Below, piece after piece: positions 345-7,251 of a stretch of DNA of 7,920 nucleotides. Location: assembly GCA_016212295.1 (NCBI GenBank), contig JACRGO010000107.1, positions 1 through 7,920 of the forward strand, in the 5' to 3' direction. Each line of letters begins with the position of its first letter. Position 1 is the stretch's first letter. The notes under the pieces are model-generated. The model ran no database searches and had not been told where the DNA came from. It worked only from the letters and a program-made list of their open reading frames with translations. This DNA comes from Nitrospinota bacterium (GTDB lineage Bacteria > Nitrospinota > Nitrospinia > JACRGO01). Made by a program: the position numbers and the translations under genes.

Positions 345-1622
345 TCACAGCGCTGCCAATGCCTTTTCGTGGGCCTCAATGGTTTTATCCAGGTCAGCAT
401 CATCGTGGGCGGAGGAGACGAAGCCGGCTTCGAATTGCGACGGGGCGATATAAATTCCGTTTCGGAGCATTTCCGAAAAATATCTTCCGAAACGCGCGGT
501 GTCGGATTTAGCCGCTGTCGCGAAATCCACTACTTCGCCTCCGGTAAAGAAAGAGCAGAACATGGACCCAACGCGCGCCATGAAAACCGGAATGCCAGCT
601 TTCTTAACGTTCGCGGCAAAGCCGTCCGTGAGTCTTTTCGTTTTTTTCTCCAGATCGTCATAAAACCCCGGCCTGCCAAGGATTTCCAGCATCTTGAGTC
701 CGGCCGCCACTGCCAGCGGATTTCCCGATAAAGTGCCAGCCTGGTAAACAGGTCCAACCGGCGCCATCTTTTCCATGATCTCTCTTTTTCCGCCGAAGGC
801 GCCGACCGGCAGTCCTCCGCCGATTATCTTGCCAAGGCATGTTAAGTCCGGTTTGATTCCATAAAGTTCCTGGGCGCCGCCATAGGCAACGCGGAACCCG
901 GTGATCACTTCGTCGAATATCAGAAGCGCTCCGAATTTATTGGTCAGATCCCTAAGTCCCTGGAGGAACCCTTCCTTTGGCTGGACCACGCCCATGTTGC
1001 CGGCAATTGGCTCAATAATCACGCACGCAATGGTCTCCCCTTCCCTTGAAAATAGGTCCTTCACTCCATCCAGATCGTTGTATGACAAGGTTATAGTGTC
1101 CTTCGCCAGGCCTGCCGTGACTCCTGGACTGTCGGGAACTCCCAGGGTGGCCGCGCCAGATCCGGCCTTTACCAAAAGCGCGTCTGAATGGCCGTGGTAA
1201 CATCCGTCGAATTTCAGGATTCTGTCCCTGCCTGTATATCCCCTGGCAAGCCGGATGGCGCTCATGGCGGCCTCTGTCCCTGAACTCACCAGGCGGACCA
1301 TTTCCATGGATGGGACCGCTTTTATGATTGCCTTGGCTAATTGCACTTCCAATTCCGTGGGCGCGCCAAAACTGGTCCCGCTCTTCATGGCGGCGGCAAG
1401 GGCGGCTAGGATTTCAGGATGGGCATGGCCAAGGATCAAGGGACCCCACGAGCCCACGAAATCGATGTATTCATTCCCGTCCGCGTCATGAATTTTAGAT
1501 CCCGCCCCTCTCTCGATAAAAAGCGGATTTCCTCCCACGGCCTTGAAGGCCCTTACCGGACTGTTGACCCCGCCGGGTATGTATTTTTTCGCTTCAGCGA
1601 ACAGATCGCCTGATTTTGACAT
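345..1622 (-). CDS. hemL: Glutamate-1-semialdehyde 2,1-aminomutase
   Basis: The product converts glutamate-1-semialdehyde to 5-aminolevulinate in the cytoplasm, the last step of the C5 route to heme and other tetrapyrroles. It is a PLP-dependent class III aminotransferase-fold enzyme. The 425-residue length is normal for HemL. The N-terminal motif [11 protein letters not shown] (16-26) is typical. SSGTEA (113-118) would bind the PLP phosphate, FDEVITGFR (236-244) carries the Asp237 that contacts the pyridine nitrogen, and [17 protein letters not shown] contains Lys265, the Schiff-base lysine at the same number as in E. coli. [10 protein letters not shown] (293-302) is also diagnostic. The ATG is preceded by AGGGGAG at 1632-1638 with a nine-base spacer. 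mtnP lies 133 bases upstream on the same strand; most of that gap is an inverted repeat, so cotranscription is possible but unproven. No frameshift or missing key residue is seen. Confidence 0.97.
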
Positions 1623-1645: not shown

Positions 1646-1764
1646 AAGTGAGCTAAAGTGAGCTAAAATTAAAAGTGACTAAAATTGTGGAAGTTATCGG
1701 CTATAAAAGAAACCTGCCACAACTTTAGCCACTTTAGTTCACTTCTAACTTTAGCTCACTTTAA
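1646..1764. repeat. Long imperfect inverted repeat of AGTGAGCTAA-type words
   Basis: The left arm (1647-1690) is an ordered series: AGTGAGCTAA twice, a seven-base AATTAAA, AGTGACTAA, then AATTGTGG. The right arm (about 1717-1764), read on the minus strand, is built from the same words in a different order: AGTGAGCTAA, AGTTAGA, AGTGAACTAA, AGTGGCTAA, AGTTGTGG. The arms could fold into a long imperfect hairpin around a loop at about 1691-1716. The element fills the mtnP-hemL gap. The last lysine codon and the TGA stop of mtnP lie inside the right arm. A half-copy of the left arm occurs at 7681-7721. Confidence 0.8.
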
Positions 1765-2613
1765 GTTCAAAATTATCTCCAGGTCCTTCCTGGTTTGTTC
1801 CGGTATCATGTCCTTGTTAGTCATTATGGCGTTTTTCATGGCGTCCGCGCAGGCGCAGGCTTTTTTACCGTCAATGGATCCCACCGCGTTCTTGATGATC
1901 TTCTGGGCCATTTCCACGTTCTGGTGGATGATCCGGATCACAGCCTCCACGGTGACCTCTTCATGCCCGGCGTACCAGCAGTCGTAGTCCGTGGCCAGGG
2001 CGATTGTGGAGTAGCAGACGCCCGCCTCCCTTGCCAGCTTGGCCTCGGTGACGTTGGTCATGCCGATTACGTCCACTCCCCACTTCCTGTAGATATTCGA
2101 CTCCCCGCGGGTGGAGAACAGCGGGCCCTCGATGCAGATATACGTCCCTCCCTTATGGACCGTGGCGCCCGCGCTCTTGGCCGAGGCGGTAACCACCTCG
2201 CATAACGCGCCGCAGACCGGGTCCGCGAAGGAGGCATGTCCCACTACTCCGTTGCCGAAGAAGGTGCTGATACGGTTTTTGGTCTGGTCGAAAAACTGGT
2301 CTGGAATTACTATGTGCCCGGGCTCGATCTCCTCCTTCATGCTCCCTACGGCGCTGACGGACAGAATTTGCGCCACGCCTAGTTTTTTCATGCCGAAGAT
2401 ATTGGCGCGGAAATTCAACTGCGAAGGCAATATGCGGTGTCCCTTTCCATGCCTCGGCAGGAAGGCGACTTTTTTCCCCATGAGCGTGCCCAGGATAAAT
2501 TTATCCGACGGCTCGCCGAAGGGGGTCTCCACGCGGACCTCCTCTTCAATGGCCAATTCCTTCATCTCGTAAAGGCCGCTTCCACCAATAATCCCTATTC
2601 TTTTTCCGTTCAT
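1756..2613 (-). CDS. mtnP: S-methyl-5'-thioadenosine phosphorylase
   Basis: The product cleaves methylthioadenosine with phosphate to adenine and 5-methylthioribose-1-phosphate. It recycles the by-product of polyamine and related S-adenosylmethionine-using pathways toward methionine and the adenine pool. It belongs to the PNP/MTAP type I family and is 285 residues long, the usual size. GGSGLY (10-15) and the phosphate-site RHGKGH (54-59) are present, as are SAVGS (87-91), CIEGPLFSTR (160-169) and GMTNVTEAKLAREA (184-197) with Met185. ATDYD (207-211) supplies Asp209 and Asp211, spaced from Met185 as Met196, Asp220 and Asp222 are in human MTAP. These aspartates favour 6-aminopurine substrates, so MTAP is preferred over guanosine or inosine phosphorylase. 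The ATG has AGAGAGG at 2620-2626 with a six-base spacer. A TTGTCA/TTTAAA pair (2656-2661 and 2632-2637, minus strand) is a weak promoter candidate but leaves almost no leader. The stop codon lies in a repeat element. Confidence 0.94.
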   Translation of the reverse strand: MNGKRIGIIGGSGLYEMKELAIEEEVRVETPFGEPSDKFILGTLMGKKVAFLPRHGKGHRILPSQLNFRANIFGMKKLGVAQILSVSAVGSMKEEIEPGHIVIPDQFFDQTKNRISTFFGNGVVGHASFADPVCGALCEVVTASAKSAGATVHKGGTYICIEGPLFSTRGESNIYRKWGVDVIGMTNVTEAKLAREAGVCYSTIALATDYDCWYAGHEEVTVEAVIRIIHQNVEMAQKIIKNAVGSIDGKKACACADAMKNAIMTNKDMIPEQTRKDLEIILNLK

Positions 2614-2873: not shown

Positions 2874-5135
2874 TCAAGACGCATCTACCGCCGCCAGCTT
2901 GCTCATCTCCTTCTTCTTTTCCAACTCACCAATCAGGAAACGCAGTTCATTCACATAATCCCCGGCCCTTGAAATGACAGCCTCGTCCTCCTTCAGGACC
3001 TTGAGCTTAACGTTCAGGTCCTCGGCCAGCAAGGCCAGTTCATTGATCCTTTCCTCTTCCTTGCCAAGGGCCTTTAATTTTTCGGTCAATTGGGCGGATT
3101 TTTCCTCGGCGGCCTTCATTACTTCATTCATCCTTGCCACCGAGCTTTCGACCACCGACAAGTTCTTGCTCTCCCTTTCCAGTCTTTCACGTTCGCGTTC
3201 AACCTCATGAAATCTTTTCCCAAGGGAATCAACCGCGGTTTGGGCCTCCTTTATGGAAATTTCCTTCTGCATGATTTTTTCCATCTTGCCCTCGACTTCG
3301 CTCAGGACATTCTTCAGGACTGAAACTTCCTTCGCGGTGGCGGCGACGAATTCTTCCTCCTCCTTCAAGCCGTCCATTTTGTATTTCAGTCCTTCCACCC
3401 CTTCCGCGATCTTTTCCACCTTTTCCTCGGTTGCCCTGACCTTTTCCGTTTGGCTGGAAAACTCCTTGTATTGCTCATTCAGGTTAACGATGACGCTGTT
3501 GATGCTCGCCTTGGTTTGGTCTATCCTGGCCAGGCTGTTAAGGCCCTTTTGGATTTCCGAAGCGCTATGCTCAATGGTTTTTTCCATTCCCGCCAATCTT
3601 GAGGAAATATCCAGCAGCCTTTTTTCCTGGGCGTCTATCTCCATACGCTCCTTGGTAAGGTCCATTATTTTTTCATCGATGTCCTTCATGAATTTAGACA
3701 CGGTATCGATTTTTTGTTCAAACCTTTCCATGAATTCCACCTGTTTTTGGATTTTTTCCATTTTAATAGTGGCGTCCTCCAGATGAAAACCCAGCCCGTC
3801 CAGCTTCTTTTCCAATTTTTCCACCTGGGTCTTTCTTTGGAGCTGGCTTTCCATTTTGACGTCAAGGCTGAGAATGGTGGAACTCAGGTCATGGACCTTT
3901 TTTTCCATTTGTTCCAGGAGCTGCTTCTTTTTGATAAGCTCCTCCATACGCGCTTTCATGGCGACTTCAAAGACCTCAATCCTCTTGGCCTTATCCACAA
4001 GGGAGTCCGCGATTTTCAAGGATTCCCGGAAGGAGTCCATTTTTTTCTGCGAGTCCGCAACGTCGGAACGGAAATTCGCGATCCTTCCCTGGGCCTCATC
4101 CAGGGTCTTCACCTCACCTTTCAGGTGTTGCATTCTCTTGCCTATGTCCTCGGAGAGAAAGGAATTCAACTCGTTAAGCCGCCTTTCAGTCTGGTCAACA
4201 GCGCTTTTTTCCCCCTGCAGCACGGAAATTCTTCCCTTAAGTTCCTCCGAAAGGGTATCCATTTCCCTCAACCTGGCCCCGACCTTTTTAATGGTTTCAC
4301 CTTTCAGGGCGATGTTTTTCGCCTCAACCTTCAAGACATCCAATTCCTTGGACAGATTGCTTGCTTCCTTCTTGGCCTCTTCTATGGCGGTATTTTGAAG
4401 GACCAACTGATCGTAGTTGCCTTGGACCTGCGTCAACAGCGCCTTAATTCCCACAACCTCCTTGTTGAATTGGTGGATGATTTCCTTTTCGCCGGCGAGG
4501 TTCCTGGATTTTTCCTCCAGGTCACGGATCATTTCCCGCATCTCCTGGAATTTCTGGGCGGACCCGACCAGGAATTTCTTGAAATTTGATACCTCATCCA
4601 TCTTGTCCGAGATGTTATCCAGCATGTCCTCAAGCTTTACTATATTTTTGTCGGCCTTCCTTACCAGCTTGTTCTCTTCCGTGAGTTTCTTGATCCTGGA
4701 CTCCATGTCCCATATCAAGATATTCAATTTGCCTGCTTCCTCATTCGCTTTTTCCACAAGCCAGCGCTGTTGGGACAGGTTCTTTATTTTCTTGTTGATA
4801 TGCTCAACGAGGCGGTTCAGGTTATCAACCTCCCTTTTGGAGTCCTTGTGGGCCGTTTCCAATTCCCTGGAAACCTGAAGGGCGCCTTTTAAGTCTTCCT
4901 CAACCCTCTGGATTTCCCCGGCGTTTTTCCCGACATATTCGAATTTTTCCAGCAGTTCTTTTTTTCTTTCATATTCCCCCTTGTTCCTCTCCATGTAATC
5001 CACGAGCAGTTGCAAATTCTTCCGCTCCTGGGTCGCGGTTTCCACAAGGTTCTCGAATTGCCTTGGGGAAACGCCTCCACCTGTTTCACCCACGCCTTCC
5101 ATCGGTTTTGCCATGGTTTCCTTTGGATCTGCCAT
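2874..5135 (-). CDS. Long coiled-coil protein made of 31-residue repeats, function unknown
   Basis: I do not recognise a named family. The 753-residue product has a glycine-rich N-terminus of about 23 residues, a continuous coiled-coil rod (24-741) and a 12-residue tail ending AAVDAS. It has no signal peptide, membrane span, nucleotide-binding motif or SMC head, so a cytoplasmic structural role is inferred. The rod divides into 23 consecutive units, 21 of exactly 31 residues. Core hydrophobic positions are 1, 4, 8, 11, 14, 18, 21, 25 and 28, position 14 is often Ala, and position 31 is usually Lys or Arg. There are no cysteines, and no proline after residue 24. The start is supported by AAGGAG at 5143-5148, seven bases before the ATG. 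It diverges from gltA across 308 bases containing an inverted repeat; mtnP lies 260 bases downstream. Similarity searches will probably return SMC, myosin or filament proteins through composition alone. A filament or scaffold role is speculation. Confidence 0.88.
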   Translation of the reverse strand: MADPKETMAKPMEGVGETGGGVSPRQFENLVETATQERKNLQLLVDYMERNKGEYERKKELLEKFEYVGKNAGEIQRVEEDLKGALQVSRELETAHKDSKREVDNLNRLVEHINKKIKNLSQQRWLVEKANEEAGKLNILIWDMESRIKKLTEENKLVRKADKNIVKLEDMLDNISDKMDEVSNFKKFLVGSAQKFQEMREMIRDLEEKSRNLAGEKEIIHQFNKEVVGIKALLTQVQGNYDQLVLQNTAIEEAKKEASNLSKELDVLKVEAKNIALKGETIKKVGARLREMDTLSEELKGRISVLQGEKSAVDQTERRLNELNSFLSEDIGKRMQHLKGEVKTLDEAQGRIANFRSDVADSQKKMDSFRESLKIADSLVDKAKRIEVFEVAMKARMEELIKKKQLLEQMEKKVHDLSSTILSLDVKMESQLQRKTQVEKLEKKLDGLGFHLEDATIKMEKIQKQVEFMERFEQKIDTVSKFMKDIDEKIMDLTKERMEIDAQEKRLLDISSRLAGMEKTIEHSASEIQKGLNSLARIDQTKASINSVIVNLNEQYKEFSSQTEKVRATEEKVEKIAEGVEGLKYKMDGLKEEEEFVAATAKEVSVLKNVLSEVEGKMEKIMQKEISIKEAQTAVDSLGKRFHEVERERERLERESKNLSVVESSVARMNEVMKAAEEKSAQLTEKLKALGKEEERINELALLAEDLNVKLKVLKEDEAVISRAGDYVNELRFLIGELEKKKEMSKLAAVDAS
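2913..5066 (-). repeat. Coding array of 23 units (93-bp period, 31 residues each)
   Basis: This segment encodes residues 24-741 of the coiled-coil protein. Units start at residues 24, 55, 86, 117, 148, 179, 210, 241, 272, 303, 335, 366, 397, 428, 459, 490, 521, 556, 587, 618, 649, 680 and 711. Unit 10 (303-334) has 32 residues and unit 17 (521-555) has 35; the rest have 31. The register is clear in the protein as spacing of hydrophobic residues and a terminal Lys/Arg. The DNA copies are strongly diverged, so the array is old or has been selected for protein pattern rather than recently amplified. Confidence 0.85.
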
Positions 5136-5277: not shown

Positions 5278-5306
5278 CCTATTCAGAGATTCCCGGAAAT
5301 AATAGG
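5278..5306. promoter_or_regulatory. Nested dyads in the gltA upstream region
   Basis: CCTATT (5278-5283) and AATAGG (5301-5306) flank the palindrome TTCCCGGAA (5290-5298). The arrangement could be an operator or a small hairpin between the divergent genes. No regulator family is recognised from it, and chance is not excluded. Confidence 0.25.
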
Positions 5307-5374
5307 TGAATTGGGCAATAAAGTCAAGCTGGCGGAACGCCGGGAAAACGCCGCGCTATGCTAAAAAAATCGCC

Positions 5375-5403
5375 TTGCTAGTTTTATGGGAAAGTGCTAT
5401 TTT
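5375..5403 (+). promoter_or_regulatory. Candidate sigma-70 promoter of gltA
   Basis: TTGCTA (5375-5380) and TATTTT (5398-5403) are separated by 17 bases, each matching four of six consensus bases. Transcription would start near 5410 and give a leader of about 34 bases that includes the ribosome binding site. This is the best-placed promoter I see upstream of gltA. Confidence 0.45.
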
Positions 5404-5430
5404 AAACGGGCAAGAGCAAACTAAAATCAT

Positions 5431-5437
5431 GGGAGGT
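5431..5437 (+). promoter_or_regulatory. Ribosome binding site fixing the gltA start
   Basis: GGGAGGT lies six bases before the ATG at 5444. It decides against the two upstream in-frame starts: the GTG at 5306 would add 46 residues unlike any citrate synthase N-terminus, and the ATG at 5429 overlaps this site. Confidence 0.8.
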
Positions 5438-5443
5438 CTGATA

Positions 5444-6733
5444 ATGGGAGAAACGGCTAAATTGGAGTTTGGGGGAAAGACCGTGGAATTGCCGGTGGTG
5501 GCAGGAAGCGAGGGGGAAAAGGCCCTGGATATTTCCAAACTGAGGGCCTCAACCGGCCTGATAACGCTTGATCCAGGATATATGAACACAGGGGCTTGCA
5601 AAAGCGCAATTACATTCCTGGACGGGGAAAAGGGCATTTTGCGTTACCGCGGCTATCCCATAGAGCAACTCGCGGAAAAATCCACCTTTCTCGAAATAGC
5701 CTATCTCCTTATCTTCGGGGACCTCCCCGCCAAGGGTGAGTTCGAGGAGTTCAAGGAAAACATCACGCACCACTCCATGGTCCACGAGGACATGAGGCGC
5801 TTCTATGACGGTTTTCCCAAGGACGCGCATCCAATGGCGATCCTCTCCTCAGCCGTGAGCGCCCTATCCACCTTTTACCAGGACACCCACAATCCAAAGG
5901 ACGAAGCCGCGGTCAGGATGTCCATTTACCGTCTCATAGCCAAGCTTCCCACCATAGCCGCTTATGCCTATAAAAAATCCATAGGACAGCCCTTCGTGTA
6001 TCCTGACAATTCCGCTGATTACTGTTCCAATTTTCTGAACATGATGTTCTCCGTCCCATGCGAGAAATACAGCGTCGATCCCACGCAGGCAAAGGCCCTT
6101 GATCTGCTGCTGATCCTTCACGCCGACCACGAGCAGAATTGCAGCACCTCCACCGTGCGCATCGTGGGAAGCAGCATGGCCAATCTCTTCGCCTCCGCGG
6201 CGTCCGGGATCGCCGCCCTGTGGGGTCCCTTGCACGGCGGCGCCAACCAGGCGGTGATCGAAATGCTCCAGATGATCCAGCAAGACGGCGGCGATATAAA
6301 AAAATACATAGCCAAGGCAAAGGACAAGGCCAGCGGCTTCAGGCTCTCCGGCTTCGGACACAGGGTTTACAAGAATTTCGATCCAAGAGCCAGGATCATT
6401 AAAAAGGCATGCGACGAAGTTCTCGCGAAAATGGGAAAAAGGACCCCTCTGCTGGACATAGCCAAGGAGATAGAGGAGGCCGCCCTGAAAGACGATTACT
6501 TCGTCGAAAGGAAACTCTATCCGAACGTGGACTTCTATAGTGGCATTATTTACTCCGCCATCGGAATTCCGGTCAATATGTTCACCGGCATGTTCGCCAT
6601 AGGCAGGCTTCCTGGCTGGATAGCCCAATGGTGCGAGATGATGAAGGACCCTGATCTGAAAATCGGCAGGCCAAGACAGGTATACACCGGGGCAAACGAA
6701 CGACAGTACGTTTCATTAGAGAAGAGAAAGTAG
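5444..6733 (+). CDS. gltA: Citrate synthase, type II (GltA family)
   Basis: The product condenses acetyl-CoA with oxaloacetate to citrate, the entry to the TCA cycle. From the ATG at 5444 it has 429 residues, close to the 427 of E. coli GltA, and the numbering stays almost in register. The catalytic residues are His264 in WGPLHGGAN, His306 in GFGHRVYKNFDPRA and Asp363 in NVDFYSG; Arg388 and Arg409 match the substrate arginines. LILHADHEQN (223-232) is also typical. Residues reported at the NADH allosteric site of the E. coli hexamer are largely kept: His110, Tyr145, Arg163, Lys167 and Cys206, with Arg109 replaced by His and Thr111 by Ser. NADH inhibition is therefore plausible but not certain. 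2-Methylcitrate synthase is a less likely alternative, since those are usually shorter. The gene diverges from the coiled-coil gene, and the next gene starts 59 bases after its stop. Confidence 0.96.
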   Translation: MGETAKLEFGGKTVELPVVAGSEGEKALDISKLRASTGLITLDPGYMNTGACKSAITFLDGEKGILRYRGYPIEQLAEKSTFLEIAYLLIFGDLPAKGEFEEFKENITHHSMVHEDMRRFYDGFPKDAHPMAILSSAVSALSTFYQDTHNPKDEAAVRMSIYRLIAKLPTIAAYAYKKSIGQPFVYPDNSADYCSNFLNMMFSVPCEKYSVDPTQAKALDLLLILHADHEQNCSTSTVRIVGSSMANLFASAASGIAALWGPLHGGANQAVIEMLQMIQQDGGDIKKYIAKAKDKASGFRLSGFGHRVYKNFDPRARIIKKACDEVLAKMGKRTPLLDIAKEIEEAALKDDYFVERKLYPNVDFYSGIIYSAIGIPVNMFTGMFAIGRLPGWIAQWCEMMKDPDLKIGRPRQVYTGANERQYVSLEKRK

Positions 6734-6792: not shown

Positions 6793-7251
6793 ATGAAGAA
6801 GTTCCTTCTCCTTTTATTTCTTTTTTTTATTTCCCTGAGCCCTGCGCTTGCAGTGGAAATCGCCCCCCGCATCTCCGACAGGGAAATCATAGAAAATTTA
6901 TCCGATTTGCGAGGCGACATCAAGGAATTAAGAGCCGGCCAAAACGCCCTTCAGCAGCAAATCAATGATTTAAAGGAATCAACCAACAAACGGTTCGATG
7001 ACATGAACAAGCGGTTCGATGACGTCAACGGACGGTTCGATACCCTGCAATGGATGCTTGGGCTTTTTATTACCGTTGCCCTTTCATTAATAGGAATCAT
7101 GGGGCGTATACTCTGGAATCAGCAGAAAAAACTAACCCAGATAGAAACCTCCCTTGAGGCACAGAAGGAGGAGCTGTCATTTCTGAAATCCCTCATCGAA
7201 AAACTTCAATCCCTCATTGAAAAACTCCTCCCGCCTAGAGGCGTCCTGTAA
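6793..7251 (+). CDS. Exported coiled-coil protein with one membrane span, function unknown
   Basis: The 152-residue product starts with a clear Sec signal peptide: KK, then a Leu/Phe-rich core, with likely cleavage after ALA at residue 20. The segment VEIAPRISDREIIENL (21-36) follows. A first coiled coil (about 31-85) ends in three heptads with the NKRFDD pattern (65-85). A membrane span lies at about 86-108 (WMLGLFITVALSLIGIMGRILW). A second helical segment (about 109-146) contains SLIEKL twice. The likely topology is a periplasmic N-terminal coil anchored by one span, with the C-terminal coil in the cytoplasm. From memory, small proteins with the same VEIAPRI..DREI segment occur as hypotheticals in Aquificota and Nitrospirota-like genomes; no function is established to my knowledge. 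Similarity to coiled-coil sensor or scaffold proteins would be compositional. It lies 59 bases after gltA and may have its own promoter. Confidence 0.85.
   Translation: MKKFLLLLFLFFISLSPALAVEIAPRISDREIIENLSDLRGDIKELRAGQNALQQQINDLKESTNKRFDDMNKRFDDVNGRFDTLQWMLGLFITVALSLIGIMGRILWNQQKKLTQIETSLEAQKEELSFLKSLIEKLQSLIEKLLPPRGVL
6985..7047 (+). repeat. Three 21-bp tandem repeats within the exported coiled-coil gene
   Basis: Units at 6985-7005, 7006-7026 and 7027-7047 share the core CGGTTCGAT and encode NKRFDDM, NKRFDDV and NGRFDTL. Each unit is one coiled-coil heptad, and the DNA is still similar, so the array looks younger than the rest of the gene. A second, two-unit 21-bp repeat at 7186-7227 encodes KSLIEKL and QSLIEKL. 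Confidence 0.8.

Follow-up and report, generated by a model that had tools for sequence, protein, structure and literature searches.

Predicted Length-Locked Coiled-Coil Rods with a 31-Residue Period: An Uncharacterised Protein Family of Nitrospinota and Neighbouring Bacteria

Introduction

Long coiled coils of bacteria tend to be passed over, since their sequences drift fast and match everything. Among the described proteins of this kind, crescentin, FilP and Scc share with the protein reported here a long coiled-coil rod, a disordered head, a short tail, conserved rod ends and breaks in the register. Crescentin is heptad-based and has one stutter (PMC10873595), whereas in the present rod a repeat of nine core layers per 31 residues (31/9) runs along the whole length. 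In eukaryotic intermediate filaments, a rod of about 308 residues is kept, and consensus motifs lie inside it at the N and C ends (PMC10873595). Coiled-coil regions generally show 3.6 times less length variation than other regions (PMC5082667). The length-conserved spacer coils and the arms of Smc resemble the present rod in having a selected length and a drifting sequence (PMC5082667; PMC5344682), but Smc arms fall into several classes of length, each about 100 amino acids apart (PMC5344682), whereas the rod has a single length of 604 residues and is devoid of end domains. Stammer coils (10/3 decads) likewise have three residues inserted relative to the heptad pattern and are more left-handed than a coil with 3.5 residues per layer. 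In the stammers described so far, the decad is local and includes a short 3-10 segment (PMC4786415); in the rod, one stammer per 31 residues is distributed over nine layers and recurs about 23 times. The same coil period appears, as judged from a family model, to be present in the SpiroCoCo proteins of spirochaetes (NF047514, NF047515, NF047516), a name for which no paper was found in the literature library searched; the rod proteins come from other phyla.

The protein described here, previously unstudied, belongs to bacteria related to the ocean nitrite oxidisers. Cultured cells of Nitrospinota are slender, curved or helical rods (PMC8026999), and a literature search for Nitrospina filaments or tubules found nothing. 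The rod offers an unusually sharp handle on a long coiled coil: a distance of 604 residues kept over several phylum-level groups, two motifs that delimit it, and a period that escapes notice when only heptads are considered.

Gene, Protein and Distribution

The rod protein is encoded in a 7,920-nucleotide stretch of a Nitrospinota contig (the window) by a CDS of 753 amino acids plus stop (2874..5135, minus strand), present in one copy in its genome. The named relatives nearest to this genome are MAGs of Nitrospinia and Nitrospinota. Residues 24–741, the part occupied by the repeat, correspond to positions 2913–5066. As the preliminary description had stated, the window protein contains no cysteine at all and no proline past residue 24. 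Other aligned orthologues do carry a proline, within a stretch of 11 residues of the N-terminal arm that is missing from the genus of the window at residues 60–63 (4947..4958, minus strand); in these relatives, it is likely to kink the chain between the N-terminal motif and the rod. The sequence gives no evident sign of a signal peptide or of a membrane segment. The protein has no Pfam match above the cut-off, and no catalytic or binding domain was found in Pfam or NCBIfam, only coil.

A profile search of 77 Nitrospinota genomes gave matches at E ≤ 1e-3 in 54; two of these are weak generic coils, which leaves about 52 of 77. Strong orthologues were also present in 18 of 24 genomes of a second phylum-level group (that of L067), and further ones in a genome titled Tectomicrobia (L079, one orthologue) and in four of nine genomes of a third, distant group (that of L092). 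Proteins L091, L092 and L094 of the distant group share 24–25% identity with the window protein. The gene is typically single, with one orthologue per genome, and no plasmid-borne relatives were found.

Repeat Organization

Hydrophobicity autocorrelation of the rod protein has its highest value at lag 31 and its second highest at lag 62. Over residues 24–741, the lag-31 value is 0.427, against a mean of 0.00 and a maximum of 0.106 in heptad-block shuffles (n = 2000); the highest autocorrelation of any lag between 15 and 99 in 300 shuffles was 0.149. The BLOSUM similarity at lag 31 reaches 0.342, compared with a mean of 0.066 (sd 0.061; maximum 0.295) when residues were shuffled within class and hydrophobic positions were kept fixed. 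Pooling of 48 sequences raises the lag-31 autocorrelation to 0.59. The 31-residue repeat is thus real and well above the heptad-only nulls, in agreement with the preliminary description, which had read a helical coiled-coil rod of 31/9 period from the sequence and had expected a peak at lag 31 beyond the generic heptad signal.

The count of 23 units, 21 of them of exactly 31 residues, also stands: the 718 residues consist of 21 × 31 residues and a further 67 in two longer units. The first of these is a 32-residue unit with a register shift of +1 (residues ~322–332; 4140..4172, minus strand), and the second is a 35-residue unit with a shift of +4 (residues ~508–543; 3507..3614, minus strand). 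Before the first shift, the 31/9 wave keeps a steady phase of 50–57 degrees; the phase jumps at that shift and drifts around the second.

The unit profile over 47 orthologues has hydrophobic layers at positions 2, 5/6, 9, 13, 16, 22/23, 26 and 30, and the layer at 19/20 is polar. If layers followed each other evenly at 3.444 residues from position 2, they would fall at 2, 5.4, 8.9, 12.3, 15.8, 19.2, 22.7, 26.1 and 29.6, the worst fit being position 13. As the layers lie near this even spacing, the stammer is delocalised over the whole unit and is not a sharp decad, so that its earlier placement near positions 11–14 has to be abandoned. Since nine is an odd number of layers, a given residue would be 'a' in one unit and 'd' in the next; the rod sequence does not seem to tell 'a' units from 'd' units, and lag 31 still exceeds lag 62. 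The rod also provides an example from nature of a coil that keeps to 3.44 residues per layer.

Predicted Structure

In the full-length AlphaFold2 model (mean pLDDT 63), helices span residues 24–50, 52–415 and 427–752. The head (residues 1–23; 5067..5135, minus strand), which contains Gly and Pro, is predicted to be disordered (pLDDT <50), and it varies in the alignment of orthologues. A hinge at the break in residues 416–426 was considered and rejected: the 31-residue register is not interrupted there, and residues 327–526, modelled with 39 sequences, form a single helix with a mean pLDDT of 91. The break, which falls inside the most conserved stretch of the protein, is therefore judged to be an artefact of the full-length model. 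The AlphaFold2 models support a long helix, and a long alpha-helical rod with a flexible head, as in intermediate-filament-like proteins, is what is predicted here.

Length Conservation among Orthologues

Two motifs delimit a part of the rod that is invariant in length (residues 127–730; 2946..4757, minus strand). The first, EKAN...W (127-VEKANEEAGKLNILIWDMESR-147), lies in the second of the conservation hot spots (residues 105–177; 4605..4823, minus strand), in which the distant group retains nearly every letter. The second, of the AGxxIxELKFLLxEVxKK type, lies in the conserved C-terminal end (residues 694–737; 2925..3056, minus strand). Among the 48 orthologues measured, 47 have a distance of 604 residues between the two, and the remaining one (L084) has 603; the 47 include L091, L092 and L094, in spite of their low identity to the window protein. 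A conserved motif near the N-terminus, ERKNLQLLVDYMERN (residues 37–51; 4983..5027, minus strand), lies 705 residues from the C-terminal motif in 37 of the 40 orthologues measured; the distance is 694 in the two from the genus of the window and 704 in L084. Both the length of the rod and the motifs at its ends are thus conserved, as in intermediate-filament-like proteins.

Apart from the single residue lost in L084, length variation is confined to the N-terminal arm (−65, −11, +129), which has 88 residues in the genus of the window, usually 99, and 228 in L094. The largest loss is an in-frame deletion of 65 residues in one genome (L116, G028:C115), and it takes out the EKAN...W motif; elsewhere in the same genus, the hits of G050 and G062 have a matching gap, and the gene is missing from G027 and G045. 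None of the length changes is a multiple of 31. Thus, of the molecular ruler proposed in the preliminary description, the fixed length is retained, and growth in steps of 31 residues is not, the changes being of −65, −11, −1 and +129.

Pairs of rod proteins at 30–40% identity differ by 0.04 indel events per 100 residues, compared with 2–3 per 100 in pairs at 20–40% identity from two globular neighbour clusters (leuB and glycosyltransferase), whose low-identity pairs may contain paralogues. Some globular neighbours are also free of indels at >50% identity, and the contrast therefore rests on the low-identity pairs. The rod protein thus combines constant length with diverging sequence, the mark of a length-conserved coiled coil, and an exact 604 residues across several phylum-level groups exceeds the length conservation that coiled coils generally show. 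Constancy of length through almost unrecognisable sequence change suggests a structural part that is workable at one size only.

L091, L092 and L094 lack one residue near the first register shift and have one extra near the second, which compensates for the loss and preserves the 604 residues. This may look as if selection acted on total length and not on local register, or it may be a matter of alignment choice.

Conservation outside the core peaks at four places, residues ~28–48, 105–177, 404–487 and 694–737, that is, at both ends and at two internal sites. The third (residues 404–487; 3675..3926, minus strand) has the most highly conserved non-core surface of the rod and is predicted to be continuous helix. 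Axial charge was examined for a periodicity that might indicate the stagger, and no clear long-range peak emerged.

Proposed Function

The conserved ends, the internal patches and the near absence of tolerated indels are what an assembly with a fixed axial stagger would be expected to need, and intermediate filaments are constrained in a comparable way (PMC10873595). At even odds (a probability of about 0.5), the protein is a cytoplasmic structural coiled-coil rod, with a fixed part of about 90 nm, that assembles into a staggered filament or lattice. Each chain would be one very long alpha-helix, made up of the N-terminal arm and the 604-residue rod (~90 nm, taking 0.1485 nm for each residue). 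Copies would pair in register through the nine-layer core repeat, as a slightly overwound left-handed coil, and the paired copies would associate through the conserved patches at both ends, at EKAN...W and in the centre. Because the patches must align, indels in the rod would be harmful, and its length would stay fixed while most of the surface drifts. The repeat, the prediction of a continuous helix, the fixed length, the conserved patches, the single copy and the dispensability are shown here; dimerisation, assembly and role we infer, as we do the cytoplasmic location, from the lack of an evident signal peptide or membrane segment. In such an assembly, the protein would work like the intermediate-filament-like proteins. 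Against a filament stand the metabolic gene neighbours, the clean losses of the gene, by which its role is not essential in every relative, the lack of any visible link with MreB or FlhA, and the solved relatives in the PDB, which are generic coils only (including a generic 21-bit match to keratin 5). No homology to crescentin or to intermediate-filament proteins was found in the libraries searched. The family would resemble a known kind of protein in its working, and yet it does not appear assignable to that kind by descent or function. Should the protein polymerise, Nitrospinota would possess a phylum-wide cytoskeletal element.

The main rival of filament assembly is a molecular spacer or ruler, a non-polymerising dimer that binds one partner at the EKAN region and another at the C-terminal end and keeps the two at a constant distance of 90 nm. 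This is a possibility to be held tentatively. It accounts well for an invariance that begins at EKAN and spans exactly the distance to the C-terminal motif, while the N-terminal arm outside varies (88, 99 or 228 residues, and the loss of 65 in one genus). However, a pure spacer has no need of a third conserved patch midway along the rod and could tolerate small changes in length, of which there are almost none, and the neighbouring genes, which are metabolic, include no candidate partner.

An SMC/Rad50-like or nucleoid-associated system that acts on DNA might have the protein as its arm-type coil, but this is improbable. The weak matches of the protein to profiles of SMC, Rad50, ASRP and JetC point in that direction, as do the constrained arm lengths of Smc (PMC5344682) and the Leptospira coiled-coil protein Scc, which forms filaments and binds DNA according to work cited in PMC2680258. 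However, an ATPase head, a hinge and a zinc hook are all absent, and the matches cover coil regions alone and lie far below the cut-offs. Moreover, SMC models gave the real protein 47 bits and artificial heptad controls 90, 60, 108 and 140 bits; as they favour the artificial coils, the SMC match is generic.

Similarity to the SpiroCoCo Families

Among the NCBIfam models, SpiroCoCo_C (NF047515) matches the window protein best, at 123.6 bits against a curated cut-off of 125, and all 17 aligned orthologues match this model. With SpiroCoCo_N (NF047514), the window protein scored 43.9 bits, short of the cut-off of 75, and a random 31-period sequence scored 68.9. Random sequences emitted from the 31-residue profile of the rod were used as probes of the NCBIfam models. 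Two probes of 31-residue period scored 123.2 and 135.9 bits on SpiroCoCo_C, compared, in approximate scores mostly from one random draw per control type, with 84.5 for a period of 24 residues, 42 for one 28-residue probe (a second was not listed), 33 for 30, 49 for 32, 45 for 35 and 106 for 38; the reversed real protein scored 71 and a plain heptad sequence 55. A 31-period probe that kept only the hydrophobic and polar classes scored 60 bits. The controls with a period that is a multiple of the heptad did not exceed 55 bits, and heptad controls preferred SMC models to SpiroCoCo_C.

The SpiroCoCo_C model has 313 positions, about ten units of 31 residues. It responds specifically to coils of 31-residue period that have the residue profile of the rod, and it appears to carry such a period itself, with comparable residue preferences. 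A named spirochaete family thus appears to share the period, as judged by probing its model, and the earlier remark that no named bacterial family is known to have such a period is not supported. Because random 31-period sequences score equally, the SpiroCoCo_C score reflects period and residue preference only and is no proof of descent. Membership of the rod in the SpiroCoCo family by descent, for which the top NCBIfam rank and the 17 matching orthologues speak, is very unlikely and was not accepted, since the real protein stays under the cut-off and scores no higher than unrelated random probes. It is conceivable, if doubtful, that the rods form a cytoskeletal family apart from the described intermediate-filament-like proteins, with a nine-layer overwound unit of 31 residues, 604 residues as the sole workable length, and a unit that arose at least twice, in Nitrospinota with its neighbours and in spirochaetes. 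If the twofold origin is true, 31/9 would be a solution that recurs among the very long rods of bacteria.

Gene Neighbourhood and Gene Loss

Most Nitrospinaceae loci have the order leuB, asd, rod, mtnP, hemL, eno, FtsB-like, HU-like and queA (names other than mtnP and hemL are our own reading of the sequences). The window retains the conserved neighbours mtnP, for S-methyl-5'-thioadenosine phosphorylase (downstream; 1756..2613, minus strand), and hemL, for glutamate-1-semialdehyde aminomutase (345..1622, minus strand), and a divergent gltA lies upstream of the rod gene where relatives have asd. These metabolic neighbours give no hint of function.

In four genomes (G029, G047, G002 and G032), the rod gene is absent and asd directly adjoins mtnP; in G045 and G027, it was not found, and different genes lie upstream of mtnP. 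Between asd and mtnP, genome G005 (L107, G005:C26; 98% complete) has a stub consisting of the start and, in another frame, about 70 C-terminal residues, which points to a recent deletion. From these clean losses in several lineages, it follows that the rod protein is dispensable in some of them. A flagellar link was rejected, as presence of the gene does not track FlhA closely: FlhA occurs in several genomes that lost the rod and is absent from some that bear it, e.g., G007. No link to MreB was seen either; MreB is near-universal (76 of 77 genomes) and thus uninformative.

The rods of L091, L092 and L094 have 889–912 amino acids, and the next genes (zinc-finger-like, RseC-like of 143 amino acids, phosphofructokinase-like) make up a context unlike that in Nitrospinota. 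In the window, positions 6793–7251 (plus strand) encode a 152-amino-acid protein with no match above the cut-off in Pfam. Its sequence shows what looks like a signal peptide, one membrane segment and a short coiled coil containing NKRFDDMNKRFDDVNGRFDTLQ repeats. The citrate synthase ORF (gltA; 5306–6733, plus strand) matches its family model from residue 50 and opens 40–50 residues before the expected start; the true start is probably internal to the ORF.
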